DNA of 64,000 nucleotides from an uncultured Bacteroidota bacterium. GTDB lineage: Bacteria > Bacteroidota > Bacteroidia > AKYH767-A > 2013-40CM-41-45. A model generated the notes under the pieces. The model saw nothing but the letters and a program-made list of their open reading frames with translations, was not told the origin of the DNA and did no database searches. The stretch's first letter is position 1. Each line of letters opens with the position of its first letter. The stretch lies in assembly GCA_937871435.1 (NCBI GenBank), contig CALMQM010000110.1, positions 1 to 64,000 of the forward strand, given 5' to 3'. Position numbers and translations under genes: made by a program. Positions 3,520-64,000 of this stretch are shown here, in pieces.

Positions 3520-3529
3520 TTTATTTGTT

Positions 3530-5104: not shown

Positions 5105-5131
5105 TGGAACTATAGATATTTCGCTGTGCCT

Positions 5132-5250
5132 GATTTGTTTTCACTTTTAAATAAACGCACGTCATAGCTTCTCCGGACGAATGTCCGTCGAAGTGCTGCA
5201 ATATTTATTACCTTTAGAATATGAATACATGCGACAAGTAGTCGACAAGT
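5132..5250. repeat. 119-bp intergenic repeat, copy A
   Basis: This segment aligns without gaps to 7066-7184. Both copies begin GATTTGTTTTC, share a nearly identical core (GCTGCAATATTTATTA, then TTTAGAATATGAATACATG) and end GACAAGT. Each copy lies just downstream of a beta-propeller T9SS gene. In the plus frame the core reads EVLQYLLPLEYEYM, but this copy has an in-frame stop upstream and most differences between copies change the amino acid, so it does not look like a maintained coding sequence. Confidence 0.75.
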
Positions 5251-5314
5251 CCGTTGCGGCAAGTCTATTCCATATTGTTTATAGTTTGAATTGTTTATTG
5301 TTTTTACTGAACTG

Positions 5315-6997: not shown

Positions 6998-7065
6998 AAT
7001 AATGACAGAAGACTTCCAGAAGAAAATAGAGTAAATTAAGCTCCACACTCCCGCCATTTTTGACA

Positions 7066-7184
7066 GATTTGTTTTCTCTATCAATTAAACACACAACCAA
7101 GCTACAACGGACATTCCTCCATCGAAGCGCTGCAATATTTATTAACTTTAGAATATGAATACATGGGACAAATGGTTGACAAGT
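7066..7184. repeat. 119-bp intergenic repeat, copy B
   Basis: Second copy of the segment at 5132-5250, same length and no gaps. In the plus frame this copy has no stop across the core and reads ...PSYNGHSSIEALQYLL..., loosely like the tail of a DDE transposase or integrase, but the frame runs on into the antisense of metH and has no start. I see no protein gene here. It is either a decayed mobile-element end or a non-coding repeat attached to propeller genes. Confidence 0.75.
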
Positions 7185-7266
7185 ACGGAGCAGCAGGGGT
7201 ACATACTTACACACAAAGATTCCGCCGAACAAGAGGATGTTCTAACGAGAGCTATTTAATTAATTC

Positions 7267-11106: not shown

Positions 11107-11148
11107 AAACAGATTTTATCAATCATGATTGGGCTTACCGAGGAAGGC

Positions 11149-11184
11149 AAAAAAAAATCTCTCCTGACAGGTCAGAAGAGATTT
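11149..11184 (-). terminator. Riboswitch-controlled terminator of metH
   Basis: On the minus strand a 14-bp inverted repeat (AAATCTCTTCTGAC / GTCAGGAGAGATTT, one G-U pair) is followed by an unbroken U tract, about 40 nt before the metH start codon and about 40 nt after the riboswitch. This is the expression platform of a transcription-attenuating riboswitch: high SAM should favour this hairpin and stop metH transcription. Confidence 0.92.
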
Positions 11185-11221
11185 CATATACATGGATAAG
11201 CCATATCGGAGATCACTCTGA

Positions 11222-11403
11222 CTTATCTATCCTTCCGTTTCCGGAAGAGCGAGTTGGCACCTTCTTCCGGGTTCTGATTGGTTATCCGGCAAATGAGATT
11301 GTTATGATAAACAATCAGCATCTGAGCAGAAACAATCAGGCAGAACCTAAGTAAGGGTTGCCAAGGCTTCATAGGGCGCATTCCCTCCACCTTTCTTGAT
11401 AAG
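11222..11403 (-). promoter_or_regulatory. SAM-I (S-box) riboswitch upstream of metH
   Basis: Read on the minus strand, the S-box signature is clear: P1 5' strand CTTATCAAG, then AAGGTGGAGGGA, GCCCTATGAAGCC, GGCAACC, and later AAGGTGCCAACTC, closing with GATAAG of P1. P4 is CTTCCG-GAAA-CGGAAG. P3 is unusually long: GGTTCTG...TGATTG pairs with CAATCAGAACC, and a further GATTGTT...AACAATC hairpin lies inside it, making the element about 180 nt. CTTATC occurs again at 11195-11200 and could pair with the 3' strand of P1 as an alternative fold. It senses S-adenosylmethionine, the downstream product of the methionine that MetH makes. Confidence 0.95.
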
Positions 11404-11406
11404 CAG

Positions 11407-11422
11407 GCCCGCAAAGACGGGC
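11407..11422 (-). other. Leader hairpin before the riboswitch
   Basis: On the minus strand GCCCG TCTTTG CGGGC forms a short GC-rich hairpin just 5' of riboswitch P1. It has no U tract, so it is unlikely to be a terminator; it may stabilise the 5' end of the leader RNA. Confidence 0.5.
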
Positions 11423-11441
11423 ATTTGTTAAAGAACTGATG

Positions 11442-11471
11442 CAAATATACAAACAAAATTGTTTTTACAAA
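11442..11471 (-). promoter_or_regulatory. Bacteroidota-type promoter of the metH leader
   Basis: On the minus strand TTTG (11468-11471) lies 18 bp from TATATTTG (11442-11449), matching the Bacteroidota housekeeping pattern TTTG / TAnnTTTG. Transcription should start near 11435, giving a leader of about 330 nt that carries the leader hairpin, riboswitch and terminator. Confidence 0.75.
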
Positions 11472-11478
11472 ACACCAT

Positions 11479-11515
11479 AAAAACGCAACGCCCCCGTTTT
11501 GCGGAGGCGTTGCGT
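11479..11515 (-). terminator. Terminator of the adhesin-like T9SS gene
   Basis: On the minus strand ACGCAACGCC...CCG CAAAA CGG...GGCGTTGCGT forms a strong GC-rich stem followed by TTTT, 14 bp after the stop of the gene ending at 11529. It separates that transcript from the metH promoter directly downstream. Confidence 0.88.
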
Positions 11516-11528
11516 AAATTCTATCTGA

Positions 11529-13127
11529 TTATTTATTGATAATCACCTTACGGGTAATGGAACCGATTTCGTTTTCTACTCTAACAAAATACACTCCGGT
11601 TGACCATTTGCTGCAATCCAATTTTGATTCCAGCTCATTGTTCACAGTCAGACTTTTCACTACCTGACCTGTGAGATCAAGTACGGAAATACGCGATTGT
11701 CCTTTCAGTTGTCCAAGCGCAATGTGGAGTTCTGTCGTTGCAGGAGATGGATATACACTTACCTGGTTCAGGATTGTTTCGCTGATACCAACAGGAAGGA
11801 TGATGTGTACAATATAATCTTCAGTTTCTCCATAGCTTTGATCTGAGCAATCTTCAGCCACTGTTGCAGGGGCATTGTAAACATAACGGACGCGCATACG
11901 GGTATTGCCGAGAACTGCACCGGCAGGAACAGAAACAGTTGTTGTAAAGTCAGGAGAAACCTCCGGAATTGAATCTGAAATGTGGAAAAACTCTCCACTA
12001 CCCTGGAAATCTCCGCTGTGATCAAAATCAAACCACACTGCAGCGCCATGATTACCAGTTCCGGGGCCAGAAGCAAAAGTGAGGGTGTAGTCGAGACCTT
12101 GCTCAAGAGATGTTGTACAAACTCCGGTGTCAGGATATAAAATGTAGTTATTCAGATTTCCGTTGCAATCAGTGCTTACATTCAACAGGGTACGGATACC
12201 AACTTTTGCAATCGCATCACAACCGTTGGTGTAAAGAGGTGTACAATAACAAGCAGTAGACGGATTCATTGTGATCTGAATAGAACCTGAACTTGCTGTT
12301 TGTCCGCTGCAAGTAACATTACACTGATAATACGTTGCTGTGGTTTGAGCTACGAGGTAAACAGAATCTGTCGCGCCCAGAATATCAGTCCATGTAGTAC
12401 CATCCGGTGAAGATTGCCATTGGTAAGTAAGTCCGGAAGCAACATCTGCACCTGTGAGATAGAGCTGAATAGTATCTGTTGTACATACAGATGTAAATAA
12501 TGATGAGGCTGTACCGGCATTCGGAGGAGCATTACATGGAGAAACGTTCAACACCTGAACGTTGTCGATAGCCCACCACCAGTCCCAGGATCCAGTCCAG
12601 GTGAAACGAACCATGATATTGTTCGCAATACCAATGAGAGCGGATAAATCATAACGTGAATGTACAGCAGGGTTTGGATATCCCAGGTCAGTAGTATCAA
12701 ATACCAATACTGTCCACGAAGTTCCTCCATTAGTTGAATAAGAAATTGTACGGGAAGAACCGTCTGACAAAGGACCGCTGAGTGAACGGTATTGCTCATC
12801 AAGATCCAGGAACAAGGAACCGTTAGCGGTAGAAATATCAATTGATGGTGTCGTTAAACTTGCTAACTCAGGAATGCCGTCATTGGTCGAACCTTCGTCA
12901 CTGTCGAAAATCGCGAAGTGTGTGTCAAATCCGGCACCGGTGATGACACGTGAATAAAAATTGTTGAAGATCCAGACATTCATTGGTGTTTGTCCCAAAG
13001 AATCGTTTGTCCAACCTGCAGGCAATGATCCACCGCTGAAGGATTCAGAGAAGAGAATCTGTGCATTGGAATTCGTTCCAATTAACAAGACAACTCCCAG
13101 TAGAAGTGAGCGTAAAATTTTGTTCAT
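11529..13127 (-). CDS. Adhesin-like protein with GEVED domain and T9SS sorting domain
   Basis: The start is set at the ATG at 13127 (MNKILRSLLLG...), which gives a proper signal peptide ending NSNAQ; a longer upstream frame would overlap trhO. The protein is 532 residues. Seen in order: a cleaved-adhesin / choice-of-anchor-J type jelly roll (about 20-190; FSESFSGGSLPAGW, ISYSTNGGTSW), an Ig-like segment (about 205-290; YQWQSSPDGTTW), a GEVED domain (about 305-440; AVWFDFDHSGDF ... YGETEDYIVHI) and a T9SS sorting domain (about 455-532; VYPSPATTELHI ... RKVIINK). These combinations are common in secreted Bacteroidota adhesins and peptidases, but no protease domain is present, so a binding role is inferred. 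It follows trhO by 22 bp and has its own terminator. Confidence 0.85.
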   Translation of the reverse strand: MNKILRSLLLGVVLLIGTNSNAQILFSESFSGGSLPAGWTNDSLGQTPMNVWIFNNFYSRVITGAGFDTHFAIFDSDEGSTNDGIPELASLTTPSIDISTANGSLFLDLDEQYRSLSGPLSDGSSRTISYSTNGGTSWTVLVFDTTDLGYPNPAVHSRYDLSALIGIANNIMVRFTWTGSWDWWWAIDNVQVLNVSPCNAPPNAGTASSLFTSVCTTDTIQLYLTGADVASGLTYQWQSSPDGTTWTDILGATDSVYLVAQTTATYYQCNVTCSGQTASSGSIQITMNPSTACYCTPLYTNGCDAIAKVGIRTLLNVSTDCNGNLNNYILYPDTGVCTTSLEQGLDYTLTFASGPGTGNHGAAVWFDFDHSGDFQGSGEFFHISDSIPEVSPDFTTTVSVPAGAVLGNTRMRVRYVYNAPATVAEDCSDQSYGETEDYIVHIILPVGISETILNQVSVYPSPATTELHIALGQLKGQSRISVLDLTGQVVKSLTVNNELESKLDCSKWSTGVYFVRVENEIGSITRKVIINK

Positions 13128-13149
13128 GTGTTGAAGTTTTGAGGTTAAT

Positions 13150-14211
13150 TTATTCTGTTTGATGATTGAGAGTAGAATGCGTGATTTCGCGTAAGTTGGG
13201 ACGGAGTCTGCTTTTGTACACATTCCTGTGGATCTCTTTTCCTTTTCCTTTTCTGTGAACGCGTCTTTCTTCCAATGGAAGTGCAGCTACTTCCATGCAT
13301 GTTTCGGTACAGCAGCCATTCATTTTTTGTGCACAGGAATCACATTGAATAAACAATAAATGGCATTCTTCATTTTTACAATTTACATGTGTATCACATG
13401 GAGCACCGCATTGATGACAGGAACTGATGATATCTTCTGTGATCCGTTCACCAAGGCGTTGGTCAAAAACGAAATTTTTTCCGATGAACTGAGTCTCCAA
13501 CCCTTCGGCTTTCACCTGGCGGGCGTAATGAATTATTCCTCCGTTCAGTTGATTGACATCTTTGAATCCATGGTGCTTAAAAAACGCGCTTGCCTTTTCG
13601 CAACGCACACCACCGGTACAATACAAAACAATTTTGTTGTCTTTCTTGTCTTGCAACATGTCCAGCACCATCGGCAGTTCTTGTCGGAAAGTATCTGACT
13701 GAGGCAGGATAGCGCCTTTGAAATGTCCCACTTCACTTTCGTAATGATTGCGAAGATCTACGAGTACTGTTCCCGGAGTTTGAATGGCTTCATTGAATTG
13801 CTGAGCATTGAGGTGAGTCCCGACATTCGTCACATCGAAATCGCCATCATTCAAACCATCCGCTACAATTTTCTTTCGTGTACGAACAATCAATTTGATG
13901 AAAGATTTTCCATCATCTTCAACCGCGATTTTCAAATCCACTCCACGTAATTGAATGATATCATTTAACAAGGAAAGGAATTTATCCCAATTGAATTCCG
14001 GAACAGAAATCTGTGCATTAATGCCTTCATGAGCAACATACACTCTGCCGAGTATATTCAATTCCTGAAAACGGACATACAGTTGATCACGGAAAGATGG
14101 AACATCATCCAGGATCACGTAGCGATAGAAGGAAACAGTTTTCCTGTTAAAATCCTCCGCCATGAGGCGTTTGGACAGGGTTTCTTTGTCGTATTTATTG
14201 TGCAAAATCAT
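13150..14211 (-). CDS. trhO: tRNA uridine-34 hydroxylase TrhO (rhodanese family)
   Basis: TrhO proteins (formerly YceA) hydroxylate uridine 34 in the wobble position of certain tRNAs. The N-terminal acylphosphatase-like domain (about 20-110; VYVAHEGINAQIS) is followed by a rhodanese domain with YCTGGVRCEK, giving active-site C198 when counted from the ATG at 14211. A C-terminal Cys-rich tail follows (CHQCGAPC, CKNEECH, CDSC, CC-x3-C). I prefer the ATG at 14211 (353 residues, near the E. coli length) over a GTG at 14247. It may share a transcript with the downstream T9SS gene 22 bp away, but the two have no obvious common function. Confidence 0.9.
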   Translation of the reverse strand: MILHNKYDKETLSKRLMAEDFNRKTVSFYRYVILDDVPSFRDQLYVRFQELNILGRVYVAHEGINAQISVPEFNWDKFLSLLNDIIQLRGVDLKIAVEDDGKSFIKLIVRTRKKIVADGLNDGDFDVTNVGTHLNAQQFNEAIQTPGTVLVDLRNHYESEVGHFKGAILPQSDTFRQELPMVLDMLQDKKDNKIVLYCTGGVRCEKASAFFKHHGFKDVNQLNGGIIHYARQVKAEGLETQFIGKNFVFDQRLGERITEDIISSCHQCGAPCDTHVNCKNEECHLLFIQCDSCAQKMNGCCTETCMEVAALPLEERRVHRKGKGKEIHRNVYKSRLRPNLREITHSTLNHQTE

Positions 14212-31312: not shown

Positions 31313-31515
31313 TGCAAATTTGTTCCTTCAAAGATAAGTAATGAATCCGGCTTCCTTTTCGGGCTATACAAAGAATATGAACATTTTAGAGAGAATTGTG
31401 TGATCTCCGAAAATCGTTTCAAAATGGAATTTACGACTTTTTATGTTCAACAGAAGTACTTTATTTTCAGTATACTTGTATTTCTAAAAAAATTGTTCTT
31501 CAACACATATTCAGC

Positions 31516-33372
31516 ATGAAAAAACCATTACTCCTCCTGTTTTTGTTTTTCATTGTACAGCGCACAACTCTGTTGGCCTGTAATGCGAACTTCACTCACA
31601 CCTATGCATGTGCCGGAGATACAGTCTTCTTTGAAGCACTGGATCAGGCAGCAGTGTATACCTGGGATTTCGGTGATACTGCTTCCGGAGTCGCTAATAT
31701 TTCTCACGATACAGACAGCTATCACATTTTTGTAAACCCCGGAACATACTATGTAACATTGTTTGTGAATATAGGTGCAGAATGGGATTACAAAACACAA
31801 ATTCTTCATATCGGTACCGATTGTTTCAATGCTGACTTCAGTGAATTGTGTGGTGGCAATAAGGATTTTAATTTTACCAATGAGTCAACAGGCGCATACA
31901 CTTCCGTGCTCTGGAATTTTGGAGATCCTTCCACAGGAACTTCCGATACTTCCACAAGCGTAAATGCCTATCATGCATACAGCACCACCGGAACATACAC
32001 TGTGACTTTGATTATCAGCGATGGAACACAATCTGATACACTCATTCGACAGGTAACAGTACAACCAACCTGCCTCACAGCGACATTCTACAATTTCCTC
32101 GGAGGAGATTGTGTGCAGAATACGACAACCATGCAGGTTTCATACTTCGGAAATCCTACATCTTATTACTGGGACTTTGGCGATCCCTCCACAGGTATTT
32201 CTAATTTTTCTACCGATTCATTGGGAGTACATGCATTCAGTGCTGTCGGCGTGTATCTGGTTACACTGGTAGTGAGTGATGGAATGAGAACCGATACTTT
32301 TTATACAGTACAGGATATTATCGACTGTGACATCTATCCGGGGAATGCCAACCGTGACGGTGAAGTGAATATGGAAGATTTATTCGCCATTGGAATTTCT
32401 TTCGGTGATACCGGTACAAGCAGATCCACTACAAGTTTGAGTTGGGCTCCACAAACCTGTGCAGACTGGTCAAGCGGAAATTTCATGGGAAATATGTATG
32501 TGCAGCGACTGGTTGACAAGAAGAATGCGGATTGCAATGGCGATGGTAGCATTGGTCTGCACGATGTAGACGCTGTTAACCTGAACTACGGAAACCACGT
32601 TCCTCATTATGCGCACAATGATTTGATGATGCCTTTACAGGTAAGAGTTACCGATCCTGTTCTGGAGGTAAATCCGGGAGTATTCAATTACCTGGCAAAT
32701 GACACCGTCACATTAAGTATCGACTTGTCAGCATTGGATTCCGTGTGGAATGTTTACGGTATTGCAGCCACCATTCATTATGATCCCAATCACATTGTCC
32801 CCGGAACCATGAGTATTTCCTTTGGAAACGGATGGCTCGGAACAAGTGGAAATGATATGTTTGGTTTATATAAAGATTTTTATGCCGATGGCTATATTGA
32901 ATTCGGGATGGTGAGAAACAATAAAATGAATGCTAACGGAAATGGAGCTATCGCCACTTTGCAATTTGTTTTGAACGGAAACACAGGTTCAATGGCATTC
33001 GAAGTAGACCCGCTCGTTAAAATGATTTCCATCGGAATGTTCTCCTCTCAGGAAATTTTCACTCCTGTAAATGTCAGCACAAACTCTATTCAGGCTGTCA
33101 TCACCGGTGTGGATGACTTCACTTTATCTCCCATGGTATTGTATCCAAATCCTGCACAGGATAAATTTGTCGTATCCCTTCGCGATGGAAATAGTTCAGG
33201 AGAATGGTACCTGCTTGATGCAGTTGGAAAAATTGTGTCGCACGGAATTCAATCAAATGAATCCGTTCATAGTTTTTCAATTTCAACTGATGATTTACCA
33301 GCCGGCGTTTATTCGTTCTCATTCCATTCAAATGGTAAACAATTCCAAAAAGCTTTGACGATAGTAAAATGA
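31516..33372 (+). CDS. PKD / dockerin-like / cohesin-like T9SS protein
   Basis: The start is placed at the ATG at 31516 (MKKPLLLLFLFF...), which gives a signal peptide; the product is 618 residues. Three PKD domains (about 25-105, 106-188, 189-270) carry YTWDFGD or LWNFGDP/YYWDFGDP and G-x-Y-x-V-T-L motifs. Next come two dockerin-type calcium loops (about 277-295, GNANRDGEVNMEDLFAIG; about 340-362, ADCNGDGSIGLHDVDAVN), separated by an insert of about 50 residues. A cohesin-like beta domain follows (about 370-520; VTLSIDLSALDSVWNVYGIAATIHYDP). The end (about 540-618; YPNPAQDKFVVSL ... QKALTIVK) is a T9SS sorting domain. It is exported to the surface; no enzymatic motif is seen. A regulator gene follows 4 bp later. 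Confidence 0.82.
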   Translation: MKKPLLLLFLFFIVQRTTLLACNANFTHTYACAGDTVFFEALDQAAVYTWDFGDTASGVANISHDTDSYHIFVNPGTYYVTLFVNIGAEWDYKTQILHIGTDCFNADFSELCGGNKDFNFTNESTGAYTSVLWNFGDPSTGTSDTSTSVNAYHAYSTTGTYTVTLIISDGTQSDTLIRQVTVQPTCLTATFYNFLGGDCVQNTTTMQVSYFGNPTSYYWDFGDPSTGISNFSTDSLGVHAFSAVGVYLVTLVVSDGMRTDTFYTVQDIIDCDIYPGNANRDGEVNMEDLFAIGISFGDTGTSRSTTSLSWAPQTCADWSSGNFMGNMYVQRLVDKKNADCNGDGSIGLHDVDAVNLNYGNHVPHYAHNDLMMPLQVRVTDPVLEVNPGVFNYLANDTVTLSIDLSALDSVWNVYGIAATIHYDPNHIVPGTMSISFGNGWLGTSGNDMFGLYKDFYADGYIEFGMVRNNKMNANGNGAIATLQFVLNGNTGSMAFEVDPLVKMISIGMFSSQEIFTPVNVSTNSIQAVITGVDDFTLSPMVLYPNPAQDKFVVSLRDGNSSGEWYLLDAVGKIVSHGIQSNESVHSFSISTDDLPAGVYSFSFHSNGKQFQKALTIVK

Positions 33373-35201: not shown

Positions 35202-36119
35202 ATGAAAAAGATTTTACCTCTCCTGATCCTCGCCCTGATATGTTGTCAGCTCTCCTCCTTTGCTCAAATTCCAAATGGCGATTTTGAAAATCTGAATTCG
35301 GATGGAACCATCAGCAATTGGGGAAATGTTTATATCACCCAAATCGTGGTGGATTCTTCCGGTAATGTGGTTCTTGATTCAATCGTTGCAGACGGACCTT
35401 ACTATCAAAAGACTACGGATGCATACTCCGGAATGTATGCCATGGAAATGAGAAATTCATACGATTTTACGTTGAACACAGGCAGAGCCGGGAGCGTAAG
35501 TTCTGATGCTGATTCAGTGTACTCTGCCTGGGGTTCACTCGAATTCGTGAATATTCAAATGCAACCCACAGATTTTAGCTTCTATTACAAATATACTTCC
35601 GTCGGAAACGATACGGGAATTGCAAGTTTAATTGTTTATGATACACTGGGGTATCAGGTAGGAAATGCGACAGTTCTGTTTACAGGTTCCAATTCAACCT
35701 ATCAATACGTTTCAATGCCAGTTCAATATACAGGAACAGATCCGGTTGCATTTTACTCTCTGAATTTCAGTACAAAATTCAGTGCAGCAGATTATCCGAC
35801 TTCACCCAATCTGGGTTCAAGACTGACAATTGATGATGTTCGTATGAGCGGCACAACAGGAATAGAATCATCCGGACTTCGTGAAAATAATTTTTCATTG
35901 TATCCGAATCCGGCCCGCAATCTGATTAACATTAATTCAAAATACCAGGGTGAAGTGAATTTCAAAATTTTTGATGCTTTTGGAAAAGTAGTTGCGTCAG
36001 GAATTCTATCTCAAGGGATACAAACTATTTCTGTTTCATCTTTTGATGCGGGAATTTATTCCATGGATCTGAATTGCACAGGAAAATCTGTTCAATCTCG
36101 TTTCGTGGTAATTAAATAA
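35202..36119 (+). CDS. Small secreted T9SS protein, carbohydrate-binding-like
   Basis: A 305-residue protein with a signal peptide (about 1-21, ending SSFAQ), followed by IPNGDFENLNSDGTISNWGN, the usual opening of jelly-roll carbohydrate-binding-type domains. The domain runs to about residue 225 and ends SRLTIDDVRMSG. A T9SS sorting domain closes the protein (YPNPARNLININ ... SRFVVIK). It lies 154 bp behind the TPR-HTH regulator on the same strand and so may be its target. Ligand unknown. Confidence 0.8.
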   Translation: MKKILPLLILALICCQLSSFAQIPNGDFENLNSDGTISNWGNVYITQIVVDSSGNVVLDSIVADGPYYQKTTDAYSGMYAMEMRNSYDFTLNTGRAGSVSSDADSVYSAWGSLEFVNIQMQPTDFSFYYKYTSVGNDTGIASLIVYDTLGYQVGNATVLFTGSNSTYQYVSMPVQYTGTDPVAFYSLNFSTKFSAADYPTSPNLGSRLTIDDVRMSGTTGIESSGLRENNFSLYPNPARNLININSKYQGEVNFKIFDAFGKVVASGILSQGIQTISVSSFDAGIYSMDLNCTGKSVQSRFVVIK

Positions 36120-54272: not shown

Positions 54273-54869
54273 TTAAAATTGGTACAGAAATGCCGCCTGC
54301 AAAACGGAGTTGTATTGTCCCTGATCAAAAAAGTTGTAATTGTAATTTCCCTGGTAGGGTCTGACTGTTGTCAACGACCATTCGTATCTGAAATCGGCCA
54401 TCCAGTGATCTGACAAGTTGAACAAAATTCCGGCATTTGCGGAGAGCTCCATCTTCTTGAACGCAGGCGCGCCAAGAATTTCGCCAAGTTCATTGTCTTC
54501 CTGAGAAAAAACAAGAGAACCAATCGAAGGGCCTGCTTCAAGAGTAATTTTCCGGGTTGCCTTATACATCAACAAAATGGGCACTTCAGCATAATGAAGG
54601 CGCATACGATAATAGGTATTGTCATCAGTATTCACCGGCTTCCGGCTTCCTTTTTGAATAAATAATATTTCGAAACGAAGGCTGAATTTTTCTCCCAAGT
54701 CCTGTTTCACAAATCCACCGGCAAGAATTCCTGCTTTGTTAAAACCTGTCAGCCGGTCGCCATTCACCTGCGTGGCTGTGATTCCTGCACGGAGTCCTGC
54801 TTTGAAACTTTGTGCGTGAGAGAAAATTCCAATACAAACCAGACTAAGAAGCAGGATATTTTTTTTCAT
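54273..54869 (-). CDS. PorT-like outer-membrane beta-barrel protein
   Basis: A 198-residue protein with a signal peptide (about 1-19, ending FSHAQ), then GLRAGITATQVNGDRLTGFNKAGILAGGFV and alternating aromatic strands to a terminal YQF. This is the pattern of the PorT / outer-membrane beta-barrel (OMP_b-brl_2) family of Bacteroidota. It is probably a small eight-stranded barrel. The family includes, but is not limited to, a T9SS component, so a T9SS role cannot be claimed. It lies 72 bp beyond the Omp28-like gene on the same strand. Confidence 0.8.
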   Translation of the reverse strand: MKKNILLLSLVCIGIFSHAQSFKAGLRAGITATQVNGDRLTGFNKAGILAGGFVKQDLGEKFSLRFEILFIQKGSRKPVNTDDNTYYRMRLHYAEVPILLMYKATRKITLEAGPSIGSLVFSQEDNELGEILGAPAFKKMELSANAGILFNLSDHWMADFRYEWSLTTVRPYQGNYNYNFFDQGQYNSVLQAAFLYQF

Positions 54870-54941: not shown

Positions 54942-55895
54942 TTACTGAATCCAGGAGGCTTCAACTTGCTTCACTTCATAACTCTGCTCTTCAGAAATGA
55001 AGGCAACAATACGCATATGTTTCGCTTCCCATGCCGGATTCAAAGTGATCTTGTAACCTCTGAGCGCGATGTCTCCTGCATTTACAGTAGCTTCTCCAAT
55101 CACTTCACCATAGTCAGAATTCACAGCCGTTCGCAGGACATGACGGTGGATATAATCCGGATCATATTCCGGAGTCACCGGCGGATACCATTCCTGCCAG
55201 TCAATCAGACTGTCTTCCGTAAGAATCACAGTCAGTTTAAAAGGTCCTGTCATAGAAGAAACAGCTCTTGACTGTACCGCGATTTTTAATTCACGGGAAG
55301 AAGCATCATAATTATTCTTGATACGCAACGCAAAAGGAGCTGCCAATGTACTGCGCTGCTGAATAACACTTGACCACACAGCAGGAGCTTTTACCTGTTG
55401 ATGACTTGGAAATCCGACACGGTCTATCAACCCATTCGGATTGCCGGCATTGGAATTTCCAAAATTGTGATCCCATTCTTCTCCTGTAGAAGTACGAAAA
55501 TCGGTAGTGAAGGAACCCGTTGGCTGTGAACCCGGGCAAGCCAATCCGCCCGGACAAGGTTCTGCAAAAAATCCGGCATGCACAGAAACTACTACGAGGC
55601 GATCACCATACGCAAGCTGAATAGTATCATTCAATTTTATTCCGGCATATGGACAGTTTCCACACAGGATTCCTGTATAATCTTCCGCCAGAACTTTTTT
55701 ACCTGGAGTAGAATTGTCAGATGAAAATCCGAGTGTATCCCCATCAATGACTACAGTATCGTTGTTGACATATACTACACCAACGCTGCTGGCTGTCCGG
55801 TATGGAGCATCGACTTTATCGCAGGAACTTATCCATCCAAAGAGAGCCGTAAGGACAATCAGACTGATATGTTTTGAATTCTTCATGTTCATCAT
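54942..55895 (-). CDS. Omp28-family lipoprotein with CxxC
   Basis: A 317-residue protein with a lipoprotein signal: charged start, hydrophobic stretch, and Cys25 in WISSC. After a linker, LAEDYTGILCGNCPYAG places C78-G-N-C81 where a thioredoxin fold has its active site. The following GDRLVVVSVHAG strand and the later RVGFPSHQQ fit a thioredoxin-like core (about 65-200), with a beta-sandwich to the C terminus. This is the Omp28-related family of Bacteroidota. It is expected at the outer membrane. Three nearby starts (residues 1, 2 and 4) are possible. It lies 8 bp behind the DUF6029 gene, so they are co-expressed. Confidence 0.83.
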   Translation of the reverse strand: MMNMKNSKHISLIVLTALFGWISSCDKVDAPYRTASSVGVVYVNNDTVVIDGDTLGFSSDNSTPGKKVLAEDYTGILCGNCPYAGIKLNDTIQLAYGDRLVVVSVHAGFFAEPCPGGLACPGSQPTGSFTTDFRTSTGEEWDHNFGNSNAGNPNGLIDRVGFPSHQQVKAPAVWSSVIQQRSTLAAPFALRIKNNYDASSRELKIAVQSRAVSSMTGPFKLTVILTEDSLIDWQEWYPPVTPEYDPDYIHRHVLRTAVNSDYGEVIGEATVNAGDIALRGYKITLNPAWEAKHMRIVAFISEEQSYEVKQVEASWIQ

Positions 55896-55903
55896 TAATG
55901 AAA

Positions 55904-57550
55904 TTAAAAACTACTGGTGATTGAAAGCGTAAAGCCACTGGAAGCAGGTACATTCCGGCATACTCCACCTACACAGAAAATTCCCGCGCGCTGACGTCCA
56001 TAACCAATGGTAAAACGGTTTGCATTCTTTGTATAGCCGATATTTCCTGTGAAATAATGAATCTGCCTGCTGCTGACATCATTTCCATAATTCCACTCAT
56101 CAAAACCGGCGATGAACCAATGCGGAGCGATAGAATATTCAGCCAGTAACACAGCCCAGCTTTGCTGATCCTGTTTTGTATACATATGCTGGAGTTCCGT
56201 TCTGAAATTTTTTGTGGATGTAATACGGTAATTCAACTCAAGTACCGCTATGTGTGCATACACATGTCCGAATCCCGTTCTGCCTTCCACAACATCTTTG
56301 TTGTAATTCTGATACATATATGTAAGAATCATCCTGAGCTTTTTGCTGAGCTTGTGATTGATTTCTATATTAAAATCTTCAAAATAAATTTCTTTCCCTA
56401 AAGCAAAAAAGTCAGAAGTATATCCAAGGTCCGCGGCATCGGGATTGCCTGTAGTATCAATCGCAGTTTTTTCAATCGACTGGGCCCGTGAATAATTCAC
56501 TGTTAAATCTGTTCCGTATTTGCCTCCTAAAAAGGAACCCGCTTTCAGGTTATAGAAAAATTCAGCCTGGAATCCATACTCTCCATTCGGTTGAGTGGCA
56601 TAAGGATATAAAGCAGTTAGTATATAAGTGTGATTTTTTGTAAGGGCTGGCAAATAATTTATCAGCAAAGTATTTCCCACTGAATACCGATCACTTCGAA
56701 AACCCATGTTGTCGATTCGTTTTGCGGCAACGGTCACTCCCATTCCTTTTTTAGTATAGCCGACATTGAGCAAAAGTGCTTCACCATCTTTGTAAATAAA
56801 TCCATTGGAAGTAGAAGGGTCATTAATTTTTCGCGCATATTCTGCACTTGCACTCCAGCCGCCTCTGTTCATGCTTAAACGGCCCGAGGAAGCTCCTACG
56901 TTTAAAGGCAGATTAAATGTCGGATCCTGATCTTTCTGGTATTTACTCACAAAACTGCCACCAATAATCCATTGTGTTTTTGCTGCAGCCCTGGAAGCGA
57001 ATGACTCATTGATATTCCATTCACCGTCAAAGCCACGAACAATTCCTTCTCCTGTTTGAAAAAAAGTTCTTTGTCTTCCAATTAATCCTTTAAAGTATAC
57101 ACCGGCAAAGGGTTTGTATTTCAGTCTGAATCCATCGATAGCATTATCGTATCCAAGTCCTCTTTCTTCATAGGCACGAAAGATGAGACCGCTACCAAAC
57201 TGTTCGTAAAAATTTCCGGCCGTCATTTCTAAATCACCATTTCTATAAGTGAGATAGCGAAATGGAATTCCATTGCCCTGATACCGGTTGTCGAAACCTG
57301 AAATTGGATTCAGGTAACTTTCATAACGAACTCCTGCGGAGAAATTATCCTTGTCGTACACAAAATTGATAAACCCGTTACTCAAAACTTTCTCGGGAAT
57401 TTCAGGAGCCCCTATCAACGAATCTTTGAAGTAATACTGACCGTCGAATTGCATATTTCCATGAATAGGCAAATTGGAAATTCCCTGAGCAAAGAGAGAT
57501 GCCGAAAGAGAAATCATTCCGGCTAAACTGAGTAGAAGTTTGGTTTTCAC
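55904..57550 (-). CDS. DUF6029 family outer-membrane protein
   Basis: A 548-residue protein with a signal peptide (about 1-22, ending LFAQ) and many amphipathic strands ending in a terminal Phe (SITSSF), as in outer-membrane barrels. The opening GISNLPIHGNMQFDGQYYFKDSLIG and the NFYEQFGSGLIFRAYEERGLGYDNAIDGFR segment match the DUF6029 family. Function is unknown. It sits in one unit with the TlpA-like redoxin (84 bp upstream) and the Omp28-like lipoprotein (8 bp downstream). It could be the outer-membrane partner for those redox proteins. Confidence 0.82.
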   Translation of the reverse strand: MKTKLLLSLAGMISLSASLFAQGISNLPIHGNMQFDGQYYFKDSLIGAPEIPEKVLSNGFINFVYDKDNFSAGVRYESYLNPISGFDNRYQGNGIPFRYLTYRNGDLEMTAGNFYEQFGSGLIFRAYEERGLGYDNAIDGFRLKYKPFAGVYFKGLIGRQRTFFQTGEGIVRGFDGEWNINESFASRAAAKTQWIIGGSFVSKYQKDQDPTFNLPLNVGASSGRLSMNRGGWSASAEYARKINDPSTSNGFIYKDGEALLLNVGYTKKGMGVTVAAKRIDNMGFRSDRYSVGNTLLINYLPALTKNHTYILTALYPYATQPNGEYGFQAEFFYNLKAGSFLGGKYGTDLTVNYSRAQSIEKTAIDTTGNPDAADLGYTSDFFALGKEIYFEDFNIEINHKLSKKLRMILTYMYQNYNKDVVEGRTGFGHVYAHIAVLELNYRITSTKNFRTELQHMYTKQDQQSWAVLLAEYSIAPHWFIAGFDEWNYGNDVSSRQIHYFTGNIGYTKNANRFTIGYGRQRAGIFCVGGVCRNVPASSGFTLSITSSF

Positions 57551-57634
57551 AAGAGACTATTAGAGTGATGAGAAATGGAATCTCCGGGGAGATGTATTCT
57601 GTAATTGTGAATAATTGCGGGCTTGATTTAACGC

Positions 57635-58168
57635 TTACTTGGTTTCTCCAACAGGTAAACCTTCTTTTACTTTTTTCACAACTTCATATAATTCGTCCTG
57701 GTTACCTTCGGTAAAACCAACATGCTGCCAAACGATTTCACCTTTACCATTGATCACAAAAGTGTGGGGAGGCATATTGACATTCATGGCTCTTTTCAAA
57801 TCGCCGTTTGGATCGAGGTAATTTTCATAAGCCCATCCCTTTCCATTTACAAAAGGAGCAACGCGCGACATCGTTCTGGCATCATCGAGTGAAACAGTCA
57901 CGAGCTTCACCCCTGTTTCTTTCTGCCATGTAGCATATTCTTCATGAATTGCATTCAGCTCTTCAATGCAGGGCTTGCACCAGGTTGCCCAGAAGTCGAT
58001 GATCATCGGCTTTCCATCATTTGAAAGTTTATCAGCAGAGATATTTTCTCCTGTCAATGTCTTAACCGTAACATTTGGCAGCGTACGACCCTTGCTGTCT
58101 TGAGCAGAACACAGAGATTGAATTCCGATTAGGCCAACCAAGAGGAAGGCAGAAACAGTAATTTTCAT
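57635..58168 (-). CDS. TlpA-like periplasmic thioredoxin
   Basis: A 177-residue redoxin with a signal peptide (about 1-22, ending CSAQ) and active site WCKPC (C64, C67) in DFWATWCKPC, followed by a cis-Pro segment NMPPHTFVING (about 132). These are the TlpA/ResA features. It should reduce or exchange disulfides in the periplasm. It is the first gene of a minus-strand unit with DUF6029 and Omp28-like proteins, and is divergent from the T9SS thioredoxin-domain gene at 58346. Confidence 0.93.
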   Translation of the reverse strand: MKITVSAFLLVGLIGIQSLCSAQDSKGRTLPNVTVKTLTGENISADKLSNDGKPMIIDFWATWCKPCIEELNAIHEEYATWQKETGVKLVTVSLDDARTMSRVAPFVNGKGWAYENYLDPNGDLKRAMNVNMPPHTFVINGKGEIVWQHVGFTEGNQDELYEVVKKVKEGLPVGETK

Positions 58169-58345
58169 GGATTTCGAAGGATTTTGAGGTACAAATAAAG
58201 GAATTCGGTGGATATAATTGCCATTTCAGATCATTATTTTGTAAAAAAGCTGCTCGCTGCGTTAAAATGGTGTTGTCACTTGTAAATTCGGTTAAAATTG
58301 TGTTGATTTGATCTTCAGATCGACTAACCCTAAACTATCCTAAAA

Positions 58346-60007
58346 ATGAAAAAACAATTACTTACGTTTATTGTTGCATCCATCCTGGGCATTTTTACCA
58401 CGGCTCAAGCACAAATGACTCCTGGTTGTATTGCTCCTGATTTCATTGCAACTGATATCGATGGAACACAATGGCACCTGTATGATATTCTTGCTACAGG
58501 TAAACCTGTTTACATTGATGTTTCTGCTACCTGGTGCGGACCTTGCTGGAATTATCACAACAGTGGGGCATTGGAAGATCTTTACAATACTTATGGTCCG
58601 CAAGGTACCAATGAATTGATGGTGTTTTTTATTGAAGGGGATGACAACACTACCAATGCTGATCTTCATGGAACAGGAACTAACACTCAGGGTGACTGGG
58701 TGACGGGAACTCCTTATCCTATCATTGATAACGGAACCATTGCAAATGATCTTGAGATCAGTTATTTCCCTACTATTTATCTGATCTGTCCTGATCACAT
58801 CATTCGTGAAATTGGTCAGTTGACTACTTCCGCTCAATTGTATGCACAGCGTACAACTTGTCCTATCGCCAATCAGGCAAATGCGGATGATGCAGGTCTT
58901 ACGAACTCTAATGTTTGTCTCAATACAAATCTTGCTTCTTGTACTTCAGTAGATATCGCTTGTCGTATCGCTAACTATGGTACAAGCCCCTTGACATCAG
59001 CTACTATTACTTTGTCTGTTGGTGGTACTGTTCAACAAACAGCACAATGGACCGGCACTTTGAACACATATGAATCAGACGTCTATACTTTCACTGGTGT
59101 TACAGGAGTTACAGGTACAAACAGTGTCTCTATCGTTGTGAGCAGTCCGAACGGAAATACAGATCCTACAAGTGCTAACAATACCCGCACTTCTTCTTTC
59201 CTGATTTATCCGCAAGTAGGTGGTCCGGAAGTTACTGAAGCTTATGCTTCCGCAGCTTTCCCTCCAACCAACTGGAATATCATTAATGGCGGTGATGCAG
59301 TTACCTGGACAAGAAGTACAGCCGGTTTGAATGGAGCAGGTTCAGCAAAGATGGACTTCTACAATTCTCCTTCAGGTGATGTGGACGCGTTGCAATTGCC
59401 TGCGATGGATCTTTCAGGTTTGCAGGATGCTTCCCTGACTTTTGATCTTTCTCATGCACGCTACCAAACTTCCAATGACAATCTGAAAATTAAAGTTTCC
59501 GCTGATTGTGGAGGTACATGGACTACAGTCTTCAACAAAACCGGTGCTGCACTTGCAACAACTACAGCTTCCACCACAGCTTTCACTCCAACTACTGCCG
59601 CACAATGGCGTTCTGAGCTGGTTTCTCTGGGAGCTTTTGTTGGAAACAACAATCTCTTCGTAAAATTTGAAGGTCTTTCCAACTATGGTAACAACCTGTA
59701 TGTAGATAACGTGAATGTTACTTTCTCAACAGGCATCACTACTGTAACAAAAAAGGTTGCATTTGAATTGTATCCAAATCCTGCTTCCGACCGTGCAAGT
59801 GTGGATGTAAACCTGGATAAGAAAGACGATGTTACTATCGAAGTGTTCAACAAAGTTGGCGCGCTTGTTTACAGTTCTACTGAAGCAGGAATGTCAGCTG
59901 GTGAACACAGCATCACTATCAACACAAATGATTTTGCAAAAGGTGTGTACATGGTAAGTGTAAAAACTTCTATGGGCGCTTCTCAAAAGAAACTTGTTGT
60001 TGAATAA
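58346..60007 (+). CDS. T9SS-exported thioredoxin-domain protein (paralogue 1)
   Basis: A 553-residue protein. Signal peptide about 1-23 (ending QAQ); thioredoxin/TlpA-like domain about 25-175 with ATWCGPCW (C64, C67) and a cis-Pro-type FPTIYLIC (about 150); CARDB-like beta domain about 180-285 (IANYGTSPLTSATITLSV); jelly-roll choice-of-anchor-J domain about 298-470 (FPPTNWNIING ... NNLYVDNVNV); T9SS sorting domain from about 478 (ELYPNPASDRASV ... SQKKLVVE). It is thus a full thiol-disulfide active site delivered outside the cell. It is a close paralogue of the protein at 60943-62607 in every domain. A perfect 13-bp hairpin follows the stop codon. Confidence 0.9.
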   Translation: MKKQLLTFIVASILGIFTTAQAQMTPGCIAPDFIATDIDGTQWHLYDILATGKPVYIDVSATWCGPCWNYHNSGALEDLYNTYGPQGTNELMVFFIEGDDNTTNADLHGTGTNTQGDWVTGTPYPIIDNGTIANDLEISYFPTIYLICPDHIIREIGQLTTSAQLYAQRTTCPIANQANADDAGLTNSNVCLNTNLASCTSVDIACRIANYGTSPLTSATITLSVGGTVQQTAQWTGTLNTYESDVYTFTGVTGVTGTNSVSIVVSSPNGNTDPTSANNTRTSSFLIYPQVGGPEVTEAYASAAFPPTNWNIINGGDAVTWTRSTAGLNGAGSAKMDFYNSPSGDVDALQLPAMDLSGLQDASLTFDLSHARYQTSNDNLKIKVSADCGGTWTTVFNKTGAALATTTASTTAFTPTTAAQWRSELVSLGAFVGNNNLFVKFEGLSNYGNNLYVDNVNVTFSTGITTVTKKVAFELYPNPASDRASVDVNLDKKDDVTIEVFNKVGALVYSSTEAGMSAGEHSITINTNDFAKGVYMVSVKTSMGASQKKLVVE

Positions 60008-60017
60008 ATAATTTCAT

Positions 60018-60052
60018 GATTCCATCTTCCATTCAATTTGGAAGATGGAATC
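60018..60052 (+). terminator. Perfect 13-bp hairpin after the first thioredoxin-T9SS gene
   Basis: GATTCCATCTTCC and GGAAGATGGAATC form a perfect stem with a 9-nt loop, followed by ATTTTAAG. The U tract is weak, so it may be a partial terminator or an mRNA 3'-end stabiliser, letting some transcripts continue into the gene at 60091. Confidence 0.6.
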
Positions 60053-60090
60053 ATTTTAAGTTCAGTCAACCCTTGACAAACAATCCAAAA

Positions 60091-60795
60091 ATGAAAAAAT
60101 TATTACCCGCAATTGCCGCATTTATCCTGGTATCTCTGAGTTCTTTCGCTCAATCACTCCAGATAACAGCAGACACGACCAGTTTTTCCGGACCTGCTAA
60201 TATCGTGATGACAGGTACATGCCGCGTAACAAATGTCGGTGCCAATGCAATTTTCGTGAAGGTAAAAAGGACTGTTGTGGATACCGCTTCAGGACACGTT
60301 ACGAATTTCTGCTGGAACGGCGCTTGTTACCCTGCTACAACCAGCGAATCTCCAACTTATGTGATCATGAATCCGGGTGATGTGGATACAACATTGCTTG
60401 CAGATCTCAACCCACGCGGTTTTGGAGGCACAAGCACTGTTACATATTCTTTCTATGATATGGACAATGTTTCTGATGAATCGCTGATCACGTTTACTTA
60501 CAGAGCAAGCAGCGTAGGAATCGATGAAGTTGGTGCTTTGAAATACATCTCAAATATGTACCCAAATCCTGCGGATGCGGTGACTCATGTTTCGTATGCT
60601 ATCAACAGCGGAAAAGAAGCTCGTTTGGTTATTAGCAATCTTTTGGGTTCAGTCGTAAAAGAGATTGCAATAGCCGACAAACAAGGCGTTTCTACCATCC
60701 CAACTTCAGACATGAAAACCGGAATTTACATTTGCTCTATCATTATCGACGGTAAGTCATATGGATCAAAAAAATTGATTGTTAGTCATCGTTAA
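60091..60795 (+). CDS. Small T9SS protein between the thioredoxin paralogues
   Basis: I start at the ATG at 60091 (MKKLLPAIAAF), which yields a signal peptide ending SSFAQ; a longer frame begins inside the hairpin region. The product is 234 residues: a single beta-rich domain (about 22-150; GTCRVTNVGANAIFVKVKRTVVD, FCWNGACYP) with one Cys pair (C-W-N-G-A-C) and then a T9SS sorting domain (MYPNPADAVTHVSY ... SKKLIVSHR). I do not recognise the domain. The paired Cys next to extracellular thioredoxin-like proteins makes it a possible substrate. Strong tandem terminators follow. Confidence 0.78.
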   Translation: MKKLLPAIAAFILVSLSSFAQSLQITADTTSFSGPANIVMTGTCRVTNVGANAIFVKVKRTVVDTASGHVTNFCWNGACYPATTSESPTYVIMNPGDVDTTLLADLNPRGFGGTSTVTYSFYDMDNVSDESLITFTYRASSVGIDEVGALKYISNMYPNPADAVTHVSYAINSGKEARLVISNLLGSVVKEIAIADKQGVSTIPTSDMKTGIYICSIIIDGKSYGSKKLIVSHR

Positions 60796-60812
60796 TTTTG
60801 ATTTGCTTTGAA

Positions 60813-60845
60813 AAAAGACCATCCCTACGGATGGTCTTTTTTTTT
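60813..60845 (+). terminator. Strong terminator after the small T9SS gene
   Basis: AAAAGACCATCC CTAC GGATGGTCTTTT forms a 12-bp stem with a 4-nt loop and a continuing run of T, 18 bp after the stop codon. The A-rich arm could also let it work on the opposite strand. Confidence 0.93.
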
Positions 60846-60852
60846 GATTCTC

Positions 60853-60877
60853 AGCCCTCAACAGGGCTATTTTTTTT
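60853..60877 (+). terminator. Second tandem terminator
   Basis: AGCCCT CAAC AGGGCT followed by ATTTTTTTT: a 6-bp stem, 4-nt loop and U tract, only 8 bp behind the first terminator. Its T-run merges into a TATATTTG promoter-like box. Confidence 0.8.
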
Positions 60878-60884
60878 ATATTTG
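60877..60884 (+). promoter_or_regulatory. Promoter -7 box for the second thioredoxin-T9SS gene
   Basis: TATATTTG matches the Bacteroidota TAnnTTTG box and lies 58 bp before the ATG at 60943. No TTTG is present at the usual upstream distance; that position is inside the terminator hairpin. It supports separate transcription of the second paralogue. Confidence 0.5.
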
Positions 60885-60942
60885 AGGCAAGCCGGAAGAC
60901 CGGTATCCCAATTGATTTTTAGCCCATCAATTCACAATAACC

Positions 60943-62607
60943 ATGAATAGAAAATTACACATTCTATCGTTTCTGTGTTTACTGATCCTTGGATCATATC
61001 AATCACAGGCGCAATTGAGCGATGGTTCCATCGCTCCTGACTTCACTGCCACTGACATCAATGGCAACACCTACCACCTCTATGATTATCTCGATCAGGG
61101 AAAAACCGTGGTGATAGATGTTTCTGCTACCTGGTGCGGACCTTGCTGGGCATACCATAATAGCGGCGCGTTGGAAGACTTATATGCTCAATATGGCCCT
61201 TCCGGCACCAACTCAATGATGGTGTTCTTTATCGAAGGTGACGGAACAACAACTCTGGCAGATTTGCAAGGCACAGGTACCAATACTCAGGGTAACTGGG
61301 TCGCAGGAACACCTTATCCTATCATTGACAATGCCGGAATCGGAAACAGTTATGCCATCCGCTATTTCCCTACCATTTACATGATCTGCCCGGACAGAGT
61401 AGTAAGAGAAGTCGGACAATTGGCAACTGCCGATTTGTATGCTGCCAGTCAGTCTTGCAGTATAGCAACTGAACCGAATGATGCAGGAATCACACAGTCT
61501 ATGTCTGCCATCAATGGTACACCTGCTTCCTGCTCCGGGGTTTCCTTGCATTACCGTTTGTGTAATTATGGAACAAATCCATTGACTTCCGCGACTATCG
61601 AATTGAAAAGCGGATCTACTGTTTTACAAACAACCAACTGGACAGGCACACTTCAAACTTACGAATCTGCGTATCTGGCATTCACGGGAATTCCCGGCAA
61701 CCCCGGTTTCAACAGTGTCGATGTTGTTGCTTCTAATCCGAATGGACAAGCTGATCCGAATGCTGCCAACAACAGTGCAACACAATCGTATCTGATTTAT
61801 CTTTCCACTGGCGGACCCGCGGTGACTGAAGATTACAGCGGTTCAACTTTCCCTCCTGCAAATTGGTTCAATCTGAATGGTGGAAATCAAAATGCAGGCT
61901 GGAGTCAGAGTACAGCAGGCTATTCTGCAGGTGGTTCAGCTAAAATGGATTTCTTCAATTCACCTTCCGGAGATGTAGATGCATTGTTACTTCCTTCTGT
62001 TGATTTGTCTACCTACGACAATGCTGTAATCAATTTCTATGTTTCCGCCGCGCGATATGGAACTTCCAATGACAATATTAAATTGAAAGTATCAACGAAT
62101 TGCGGCAGCACATGGACGCCTGTCTGGAATAAAACAGGAGCTGCTTTGGCTACAGTGAATCCAACAACCACAGCATTTACTCCAACATCTGCAAGTCAGT
62201 GGAGAAGTGAATCAGTGAATGTAAGTCAATACACTGGGGCGAACAGAACCAATGTGATGTTCAAATTTGAAGCGCTGTCAAACGGAGGCAACAATGCTTA
62301 CATCGATGATGTGAATATGACATTGACAACCGGAACAAAAACCATTACACAATCTCTGGCATTTGAACTGTATCCAAATCCCGCATCACATCATGCGCAA
62401 ATTGATTTCAATCTGACTGAGACAGGAGATGTTTCGTACACTGTTATTGACAAAATGGGCAAGCTGGTGTATGGTTCATCTCAGGAACACATGACTCCTG
62501 GCGCGCACAGTTTTGAAATCAACACTTCTGATTTCGCAAAAGGTGTGTACACCGTGATTGTGAAATCTCCTGCAGGTAACTCTCAAAAGAAATTGGTTGT
62601 AGAATAA
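60943..62607 (+). CDS. T9SS-exported thioredoxin-domain protein (paralogue 2)
   Basis: A 554-residue paralogue of the protein at 58346-60007 with the same order: signal peptide (ending SQAQ), thioredoxin-like domain with ATWCGPCW (C65, C68) and FPTIYMIC, CARDB-like domain, choice-of-anchor-J jelly roll (FPPANWFNLNG ... NNAYIDDVNM) and T9SS sorting domain (ELYPNPASHHAQI ... SQKKLVVE). The two are most alike in the thioredoxin core and the C-terminal tail and differ more in the middle. Keeping the active site in both copies argues that thiol chemistry is selected for. A terminator lies at 62701-62732. Confidence 0.9.
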   Translation: MNRKLHILSFLCLLILGSYQSQAQLSDGSIAPDFTATDINGNTYHLYDYLDQGKTVVIDVSATWCGPCWAYHNSGALEDLYAQYGPSGTNSMMVFFIEGDGTTTLADLQGTGTNTQGNWVAGTPYPIIDNAGIGNSYAIRYFPTIYMICPDRVVREVGQLATADLYAASQSCSIATEPNDAGITQSMSAINGTPASCSGVSLHYRLCNYGTNPLTSATIELKSGSTVLQTTNWTGTLQTYESAYLAFTGIPGNPGFNSVDVVASNPNGQADPNAANNSATQSYLIYLSTGGPAVTEDYSGSTFPPANWFNLNGGNQNAGWSQSTAGYSAGGSAKMDFFNSPSGDVDALLLPSVDLSTYDNAVINFYVSAARYGTSNDNIKLKVSTNCGSTWTPVWNKTGAALATVNPTTTAFTPTSASQWRSESVNVSQYTGANRTNVMFKFEALSNGGNNAYIDDVNMTLTTGTKTITQSLAFELYPNPASHHAQIDFNLTETGDVSYTVIDKMGKLVYGSSQEHMTPGAHSFEINTSDFAKGVYTVIVKSPAGNSQKKLVVE

Positions 62608-62936: not shown

Positions 62937-64000
62937 ATGTCAAAATCCAAAATCAATCAGGAAGCACTGGATTACCATGAACAGGGAAGACCTGGAAAAA
63001 TTGAGGTAATTCCAACCAAGCCTTACAGTTCACAGCGCGATTTATCTCTCGCCTATTCTCCCGGCGTTGCGGAGCCATGCCTTCGCATTGCAGACAATCC
63101 GAATGATGTTTACAAATACACAGCAAAAGGAAATCTGGTAGCTGTAATTTCCAATGGAACTGCTGTATTGGGATTGGGAAATATCGGACCGGAAGCATCC
63201 AAACCGGTGATGGAAGGAAAAGGATTGTTGTTCAAAATTTTCGCTGACATCGATGTATTTGATATCGAGATCAACGAAAATGATGTAGATAAATTTGTTG
63301 AAACAGTCAAAGCCATATCTCCGACTTTTGGAGGCATCAACCTTGAAGACATCAAAGCTCCGGAGTGTTTTGAAATTGAAAAAAGACTCAAAGCGGAATT
63401 AAAAATTCCGATCATGCACGATGACCAGCACGGAACAGCGATTATTTCCGCTGCTGCTTTGCTCAATGCCCTTGAACTCGCCCAGAAAAAAATTGAAGAT
63501 GTAGTGATTGTCGTAAGTGGTGCAGGAGCCTCCGCGATTTCCTGTGCGAAATTGTATCTTTCATTGGGAGCGAAGAAAGAAAACATCATCATGCTCGACA
63601 GTCATGGTGTGTTGCAGGAAAGCCGCAAAGATCTTGATGAGAATAAAATTTTATTCGCGACAAAAAGAAAATTACATACCCTGGAAGAAGCCATGAATGG
63701 AGCGGATGTCTTTCTGGGTCTGTCTAAAGGAAATATTGTGAATAAGGAAATGGTGCAATCAATGGCGAAAAATGCGATTGTTTTCGCGCTTGCGAATCCC
63801 GATCCTGAAATTTCCTATGAAGAAGCGGCAGCAGCCCGACAGGATATTATCATCGCCACCGGCAGATCAGATTATCCCAATCAGGTAAACAATGTACTTG
63901 GATTTCCGTTCATTTTTCGTGGAGCACTTGATGTACGCGCGACACAAATCAACGAAGCGATGAAACTCGCCGCTGTACGCGCAATTGCCGAACTGGCCAA
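62937..64000 (+). CDS. maeB: NADP-type malic enzyme (3' partial)
   Basis: Decarboxylates malate to pyruvate with reduction of NADP+ (or NAD+), linking the TCA cycle to pyruvate and NADPH. The frame starts at the ATG at 62937 ([11 protein letters not shown]) and is open to the window end, giving 354 residues. Visible motifs: [13 protein letters not shown] (about 36-48), [17 protein letters not shown], the metal-binding DDQHGTAI, and a nucleotide-binding [10 protein letters not shown]. The opening is that of the large MaeB-type enzymes, which usually continue into a phosphotransacetylase-like domain; that part would be beyond the window. Confidence 0.95.

Follow-up and report, generated by a model that had tools for sequence, protein, structure and literature searches.

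A conserved TlpA–DUF6029–Omp28 neighborhood as a candidate outer-membrane thiol–disulfide module linked to the type IX secretion system in Bacteroidota

The window analyzed here (the whole stretch of DNA, positions 1–64,000, from a contig of an uncultured Bacteroidota bacterium) contains at positions 54942–62607 two gene units, divergent around a gap at 58169–58345. Together they encode four proteins with thioredoxin-type CxxC sites, an outer-membrane β-barrel of the family DUF6029 and a small surface protein exported by the type IX secretion system (T9SS). A preliminary description of the DNA had proposed four such CxxC proteins within 7.7 kb, interleaved with DUF6029 and with a small T9SS protein carrying a Cys pair. 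The six open reading frames (ORFs), with their coordinates, strands, domains and motifs, are confirmed, and the gap is correct.

The leftward unit lies on the minus strand. The TlpA/ResA-like redoxin (57635–58168; PF00578, AhpC-TSA, E = 1.9e-18) has a signal peptide, a WCKPC motif at 57968–57982 and a cis-proline, Pro134, in the AhpC-TSA fold. The DUF6029 gene (55904–57550; PF19494, E = 2.4e-189) follows after 84 bp; the sole two cysteines of its product form the motif CVGGVC (C526-VGGV-C531, encoded at 55958–55975). After a further 8 bp comes an Omp28-family lipoprotein (54942–55895; PF11551, E = 1.9e-25, 90.1 bits vs. a cut-off of 34.9) with the lipobox ISSC, a CGNC motif at 55653–55664 and a predicted thioredoxin-like domain followed by an immunoglobulin (Ig)-like domain. 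With the NCBIfam model NF033782, the Omp28 protein reaches 130.6 bits, under the cut-off of 150.

The rightward unit, on the plus strand, consists of two paralogous thioredoxins with a small protein between them. The first thioredoxin (58346–60007) has its WCGPC motif at 58532–58546 and the second (60943–62607) at 61132–61146; both contain a choice-of-anchor J domain. The small protein (60091–60795, with the signal peptide beginning at 60091 and not at 60016) contains a CX4C motif, CWNGAC, at 60310–60327. All three have the marks of T9SS cargo, a signal peptide and a type A sorting domain (PF18962/TIGR04183), recognized in each as Por_Secre_tail.

Gene order and invariant cysteines

DUF6029 is found in 39 of 41 relatives, as a rule in single copy. 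Among the DUF6029 loci that could be tested, in relatives and in the wider phylum, tlpA either is fused to DUF6029 or stands no more than 2.6 kb upstream, in nearly all cases as the direct neighbor, in 135/147. The Omp28 gene is directly downstream in 125/145 loci and upstream instead in eight more (adjacency was counted over all ORFs on both strands). The intergenic gaps in the triad are short, with medians of 36 bp and 16.5 bp. The genome of the window contains 18 AhpC-TSA and 2 Omp28 matches in 4.36 Mb, so that the triad should come together by chance only as a rare event per genome. In one genome (G332, locus L157, 6530–8533) there is a natural TlpA::DUF6029 fusion of 667 residues, with TlpA at residues 21–140 and DUF6029 at 158–667; both cysteine motifs are intact and a divergent Omp28 gene lies alongside. 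The cysteine pairs are kept in 149/149 complete DUF6029 proteins, 130/131 Omp28 proteins and 134/135 TlpA proteins. The gene order TlpA, DUF6029, Omp28 is thus conserved across Bacteroidota, and the conserved neighborhood whose lack the preliminary description would have taken as a refutation is present.

In DUF6029, the C-x(4)-C motif lies within the last 60 residues in each of the 149 complete proteins, and in 104 of them no further cysteine occurs after residue 30. The window protein is 18%–72% identical to its aligned relatives; the alignment of 80 sequences has nine invariant columns, and both cysteines are among them. One set of 80 loci was retrieved in part by means of the peptide G[LI][LF]CVGGVC and is biased. 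In the loci found with Pfam, which carry no such bias (L033–L072 and L153–L192), the pair is likewise present in every complete DUF6029. The pair had been overlooked in the preliminary description, and it strengthens the placement of the barrel in a thiol–disulfide module made there.

The AlphaFold2 (AF2) model of DUF6029 has a mean predicted local distance difference test (pLDDT) of 94.5 and contains about 24 barrel strands. An even number of strands, a signal peptide, a C-terminal strand ending in Phe and matches to known barrels all agree with an outer-membrane barrel. In the model, C526 and C531 face each other across a hairpin whose turn is Gly-Gly, just before the last strand (strands 523–527 and 530–534). 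Residues 520–537, Cys pair included, would be on the outer face according to the topology, given the strand count and with both the N and C termini taken as periplasmic. With Foldseek, the matches are generic large barrels (PapC, FimD, MtrB, BtuB, LptD) with template modeling (TM) scores of 0.3–0.5; a profile search of the PDB with DUF6029 gave no relative. Like SusCD, BtuBG and XusAB, the locus encodes a large outer-membrane barrel together with a lipoprotein. The lipoprotein partner here, however, is of thioredoxin type and DUF6029 has no apparent TonB plug: there is no match to a plug domain, DUF6029 covers the protein and the strands begin at residue 29.

For TlpA, an alignment of 40 relatives has C64, P66, C67 and P134 invariant. 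For Omp28, the only invariant columns in 64 relatives are C78, C81 and P153, which correspond to the CxxC motif and the cis-Pro position; the lipid-bearing Cys is present in 63/64. The AF2 model of Omp28 (pLDDT 93.5) contains a thioredoxin-like part, in which C78 and C81 are at the start of helix 81–99 and P153 precedes strand 154–157, and then the Ig-like domain. With hhalign, the Omp28 CxxC is aligned to the WCKPC of TlpA (E = 1.6e-5, probability 79%). With the whole model as query, Foldseek matches 2r2c, the solved Ig-like domain of Porphyromonas gingivalis Omp28; Ig-type matches dominate and thioredoxin is absent from the best 50. Judged from the model, the N-terminal half of Omp28 is a thioredoxin-like domain, as the preliminary description had expected. 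An unusual Omp28 protein of 689 residues with two CxxC motifs stands beside DUF6029 in locus L167, in a genome (G270) without a match to SprA.

The T9SS link, the PorA family and surface thioredoxins

The gene sprA, which encodes the T9SS translocon, starts ∼3 kb past the window end on the same contig (SprA_N, E = 4.8e-169, at C110:69971). Among the fetched loci, 28 include it, a count that takes in two additional fetches overlapping the window and L164. SprA is found in 79/80 genomes with DUF6029 vs. 227/296 overall (Fisher p about 7e-10, a value that ignores the relatedness of the genomes). The T9SS connection drawn in the preliminary description thus gains from the nearby sprA and from the small protein, which points to PorA.

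PorA of P. gingivalis (PGN_0123/PG2172), a T9SS protein associated with the translocon, acts on PorXY-SigP and is reported as restricted to Porphyromonas (PMC7712824). A profile of 41 orthologues of the small protein matches the N-domain of P. gingivalis PorA (PDB 6kjk) with E = 4.1e-5. With the sorting domain removed, the match persists (E = 8.6e-5) and no other convincing one is seen; when the PorA fragment is searched in reverse against every ORF of the loci, nothing but PorA-like ORFs is retrieved (best E = 2.3e-5). PorA is found by the family profiles only: a PDB search with the small protein as single sequence gave nothing credible, and one distant family member used alone as query did not find PorA. 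Among the 41 members, C74 and C79 are the sole invariant residues outside the sorting domain, and the pair is aligned with the CFGQC of PorA. By homology, the small protein is assigned to the PorA family, with a predicted Ig-like N-domain and a sorting domain in a similar length (246 aa in PorA vs. 234 aa here). In P. gingivalis, the locus numbers of PorA (PG2172) and of an Omp28 lipoprotein (PG2173) are consecutive (PMC7712824, PMC9722745). Contrary to the reported restriction to Porphyromonas, the family extends across the phylum at low identity, with a role there that is putative.

PorA-like genes and DUF6029 tend to occur together: 42/52 genomes with a PorA-like gene carry DUF6029, against 38/244 of those without (Fisher p about 1.5e-19, again ignoring relatedness). 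In DUF6029 loci, the commonest positions of PorA-like genes are immediately upstream of tlpA and ∼2.5 kb upstream of DUF6029; for 65/80 of them, a gene for a thioredoxin, TlpA or Omp28 lies no more than 600 bp away (in loci chosen for DUF6029). Outside the window, the same genome contains an independent PorA–thioredoxin gene pair on contig C18: a second PorA-like gene with CX4C (L200:646–1314) and, directly next to it, a T9SS thioredoxin with WCAPC (1343–2758). A third PorA-like gene, on contig C88 (L201:272–3927), has as neighbors genes for a TPR histidine kinase and for a response regulator of LytTR type, a setting that recalls the signaling role of PorA. A PorX-like gene (receiver-like segment and PglZ) is present on contig C114; a weak PglZ match on C101, considered as PorX, resembles phosphoglycerate mutase instead.

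The surface partner differs between lineages. In the family of the window this place is occupied by a thioredoxin that bears a sorting domain, and in other lineages proteins with a sorting domain and an Omp28 domain are found in its place. The thioredoxins of the window resemble HBP35 (PG0616) of P. gingivalis, which likewise combines a thioredoxin site in its N-terminal part with a T9SS sorting domain. The recombinant protein reduces insulin, an activity lost when both cysteines are changed (PMC2907840), so that T9SS-exported thioredoxins can be active. The two cases differ in that HBP35 was studied singly, for heme binding, with no DUF6029, TlpA or Omp28 partner described, whereas in the window a PorA-like gene is flanked by two such proteins.

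A possible redox module across the outer membrane

We propose a T9SS-linked outer-membrane thiol–disulfide module, to which we give a probability of roughly 0.4. It builds on the gene linkage and the fusion, the invariant cysteines, the predicted thioredoxin-type domain of Omp28, the predicted barrel fold, the homology to PorA and the nearness of sprA. The probable function of such a module is to form, cleave or sense surface disulfides. DsbD is encoded in the window's genome; VKOR and DsbB, one or the other of which a DsbA-based pathway would require, were not found by a model search of the assembly, rated 100% complete. DsbD without VKOR or DsbB suggests a TlpA that is reducing rather than oxidizing and that probably draws on DsbD.

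In the proposed mechanism, DsbD would feed reducing equivalents into the periplasm, where TlpA would carry them and act on the DUF6029 barrel. The barrel would offer its cross-strand CX4C disulfide on the outer face, either as a redox relay or as a gate opened by reduction or oxidation. Omp28 and the T9SS-exported thioredoxins (elsewhere the Omp28-type paralogues) would then exchange with the CX3-4C hairpins of PorA-family proteins, thereby setting or sensing the redox state both of PorA and of further disulfides at the surface. Electron flow and its direction, an outward orientation of Omp28, PorA as a client and indeed every step after TlpA are what we infer from the linkage and the cysteines.

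With the DsbD/DsbC, ScsB and TlpA/ResA pathways the module shares a TlpA-type protein in the periplasm, probably supplied by DsbD. Those relays cross the inner membrane, and none is known to include an outer-membrane β-barrel bearing a conserved Cys pair. It is possible, but doubtful, that DUF6029, TlpA and Omp28 form the first known outer-membrane-spanning thiol–disulfide conduit or redox-gated barrel, coupling periplasmic thiols to surface proteins and, through the PorA family, to the state or expression of the T9SS. The families of the module are already known, DUF6029 by number only; in a literature search that had subscription papers outside its coverage, we found no description of the TlpA/DUF6029/Omp28 triad, no account of the DUF6029 Cys pair and none of PorA relatives outside Porphyromonas. 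How disulfides are controlled beyond the Gram-negative outer membrane, with neither NADPH nor quinone at hand, becomes a testable question, and a barrel with invariant cysteines, genetically tied to periplasmic and lipoprotein thioredoxins, offers a lever on it. For work on the T9SS, the analysis widens the PorA family and suggests a candidate path from surface PorA to the periplasm; the PorA authors held that such a path must exist but were unable to name it. This comes soon after the demonstration that disulfides power the T9SS (PMC12635249).

Several observations weigh against the proposed module. SprA-bearing genomes without DUF6029 are the majority (148/227, most of the well-sampled family f9 included), and one genome with DUF6029, G270, has no SprA match. 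PorA-like genes occur in just 65/116 loci with wide flanks. Among the surface paralogues of Omp28 or thioredoxin type, 47/60 show a CxxC in the scanned N-terminal part and 13/60 show none, from which it appears that some have probably lost the active site. The start of Omp28, C-D-K-I-D/E-x-P-Y, bears what we take to be a weak resemblance to known surface-export signals. The CX4C of DUF6029, finally, could be purely structural. A core part of the T9SS is expected wherever the system is present, and DUF6029 is found in about 79/227 SprA-bearing genomes; with most SprA genomes lacking DUF6029 and G270 lacking SprA, the T9SS does not need the module, which is an accessory and not a core part.

The strongest rival is a dedicated maturation pathway, somewhat unlikely in our estimate, in which the sole task of TlpA, and of Omp28 should it face the periplasm, would be to form or correct a structural CX4C disulfide while DUF6029 is being assembled; DUF6029 would then serve another function, and no redox traffic would cross the outer membrane. 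A precedent exists in E. coli, where DsbA and DsbC act on the disulfides of LptD. An invariant Cys pair in a hairpin with a two-residue turn can be a stabilizing staple, DUF6029 is usually without other cysteines, tlpA is directly upstream with short gaps, and the fusion would equally suit help in cis. Maturation leaves unexplained, however, the conserved active site of Omp28, the surface thioredoxins, the Cys pair of PorA and the neighborhood that they share, and DsbD without VKOR or DsbB suggests a reducing TlpA rather than the oxidizing one.

A role of DUF6029 as an export channel for PorA-family proteins or for polysaccharide, with the thioredoxins folding or releasing the substrate, is improbable. 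The only paper found that mentions DUF6029 proposes a polysaccharide porin and reports an HHpred similarity between DUF6029 and Wzi-like barrels that lack a plug (PMC9603273); the usher pores PapC and FimD, with 24 strands, are among the fold matches, and PorA gets to the surface in P. gingivalis T9SS mutants (PMC7712824). But TM scores of 0.3–0.5 are generic for large barrels, and PorA, found in a PorA–PorV–Sov complex, no longer binds Sov when PorV is absent and is considered a T9SS cargo (PMC8754138). No polysaccharide-export gene was recognized in the conserved core, and the porin was set aside except as part of this minor possibility.

In Flavobacterium johnsoniae, the T9SS and gliding are powered by disulfides that join outer-membrane proteins to the T9SS/gliding track (PMC12635249; 2025), and a term search of that paper gave no oxidoreductase for these bonds. 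That the module makes or resolves the disulfides tying SprF and PorG to GldK is nonetheless very improbable. The proximity of sprA and its presence in 79/80 DUF6029 genomes speak for it. Both systems have cysteine pairs in T9SS outer-membrane proteins; the proteins are different, however, and the disulfide of the motor is periplasmic while the DUF6029 pair is predicted on the outer face. T9SS genes occur in many species without DUF6029 (the 148/227 genomes above, family f9 largely included), so that the motor should not need the module; with this patchy distribution, a general enzyme for the SprF/PorG–GldK bonds is unlikely and the candidate was rejected.

That these are separate envelope proteins kept next to one another without a common redox role is disfavored and hardly credible: Bacteroidota genomes do have many TlpA-like proteins (18 AhpC-TSA matches here), but the adjacency recurs in most genomes of many families, with a fusion and with invariant cysteines in each core part.

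On the whole, the interpretation of the preliminary description is partly supported. The client suggested there, the SprB-repeat protein at 1–3519, found no support: it has 46 Cys in 1172 aa, SprB repeats and a sorting domain, and is cut by the window start, but it lies ∼51 kb away and no linkage was found.

Neighboring genes and other sorting domains

The leftward unit is probably closed by a small outer-membrane barrel of the OMP_b-brl_2 family, of 8-strand type (54273–54869, minus strand; PF13568, E = 5.1e-16), 72 bp beyond the Omp28 gene. A gene for such a barrel is found within 3 kb downstream in 29/115 loci, and its position is kept in the family of the window. Beyond the rightward unit, a malic enzyme starts at 62937 on the plus strand (62937–63998) and runs past the window end. 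In a separately fetched stretch (L193, contig C110 from 60000), the malic enzyme is at 2938–5211, followed by a RuvA-like gene at 5983–6558 and SprA at 6669–13907. Many further proteins, three of them covered by the Pfam analysis, end in tails resembling sorting domains elsewhere in the window, at 1–3519, 3530–5104, 5291–6997, 11529–13223, 31396–33372 and 35202–36119.

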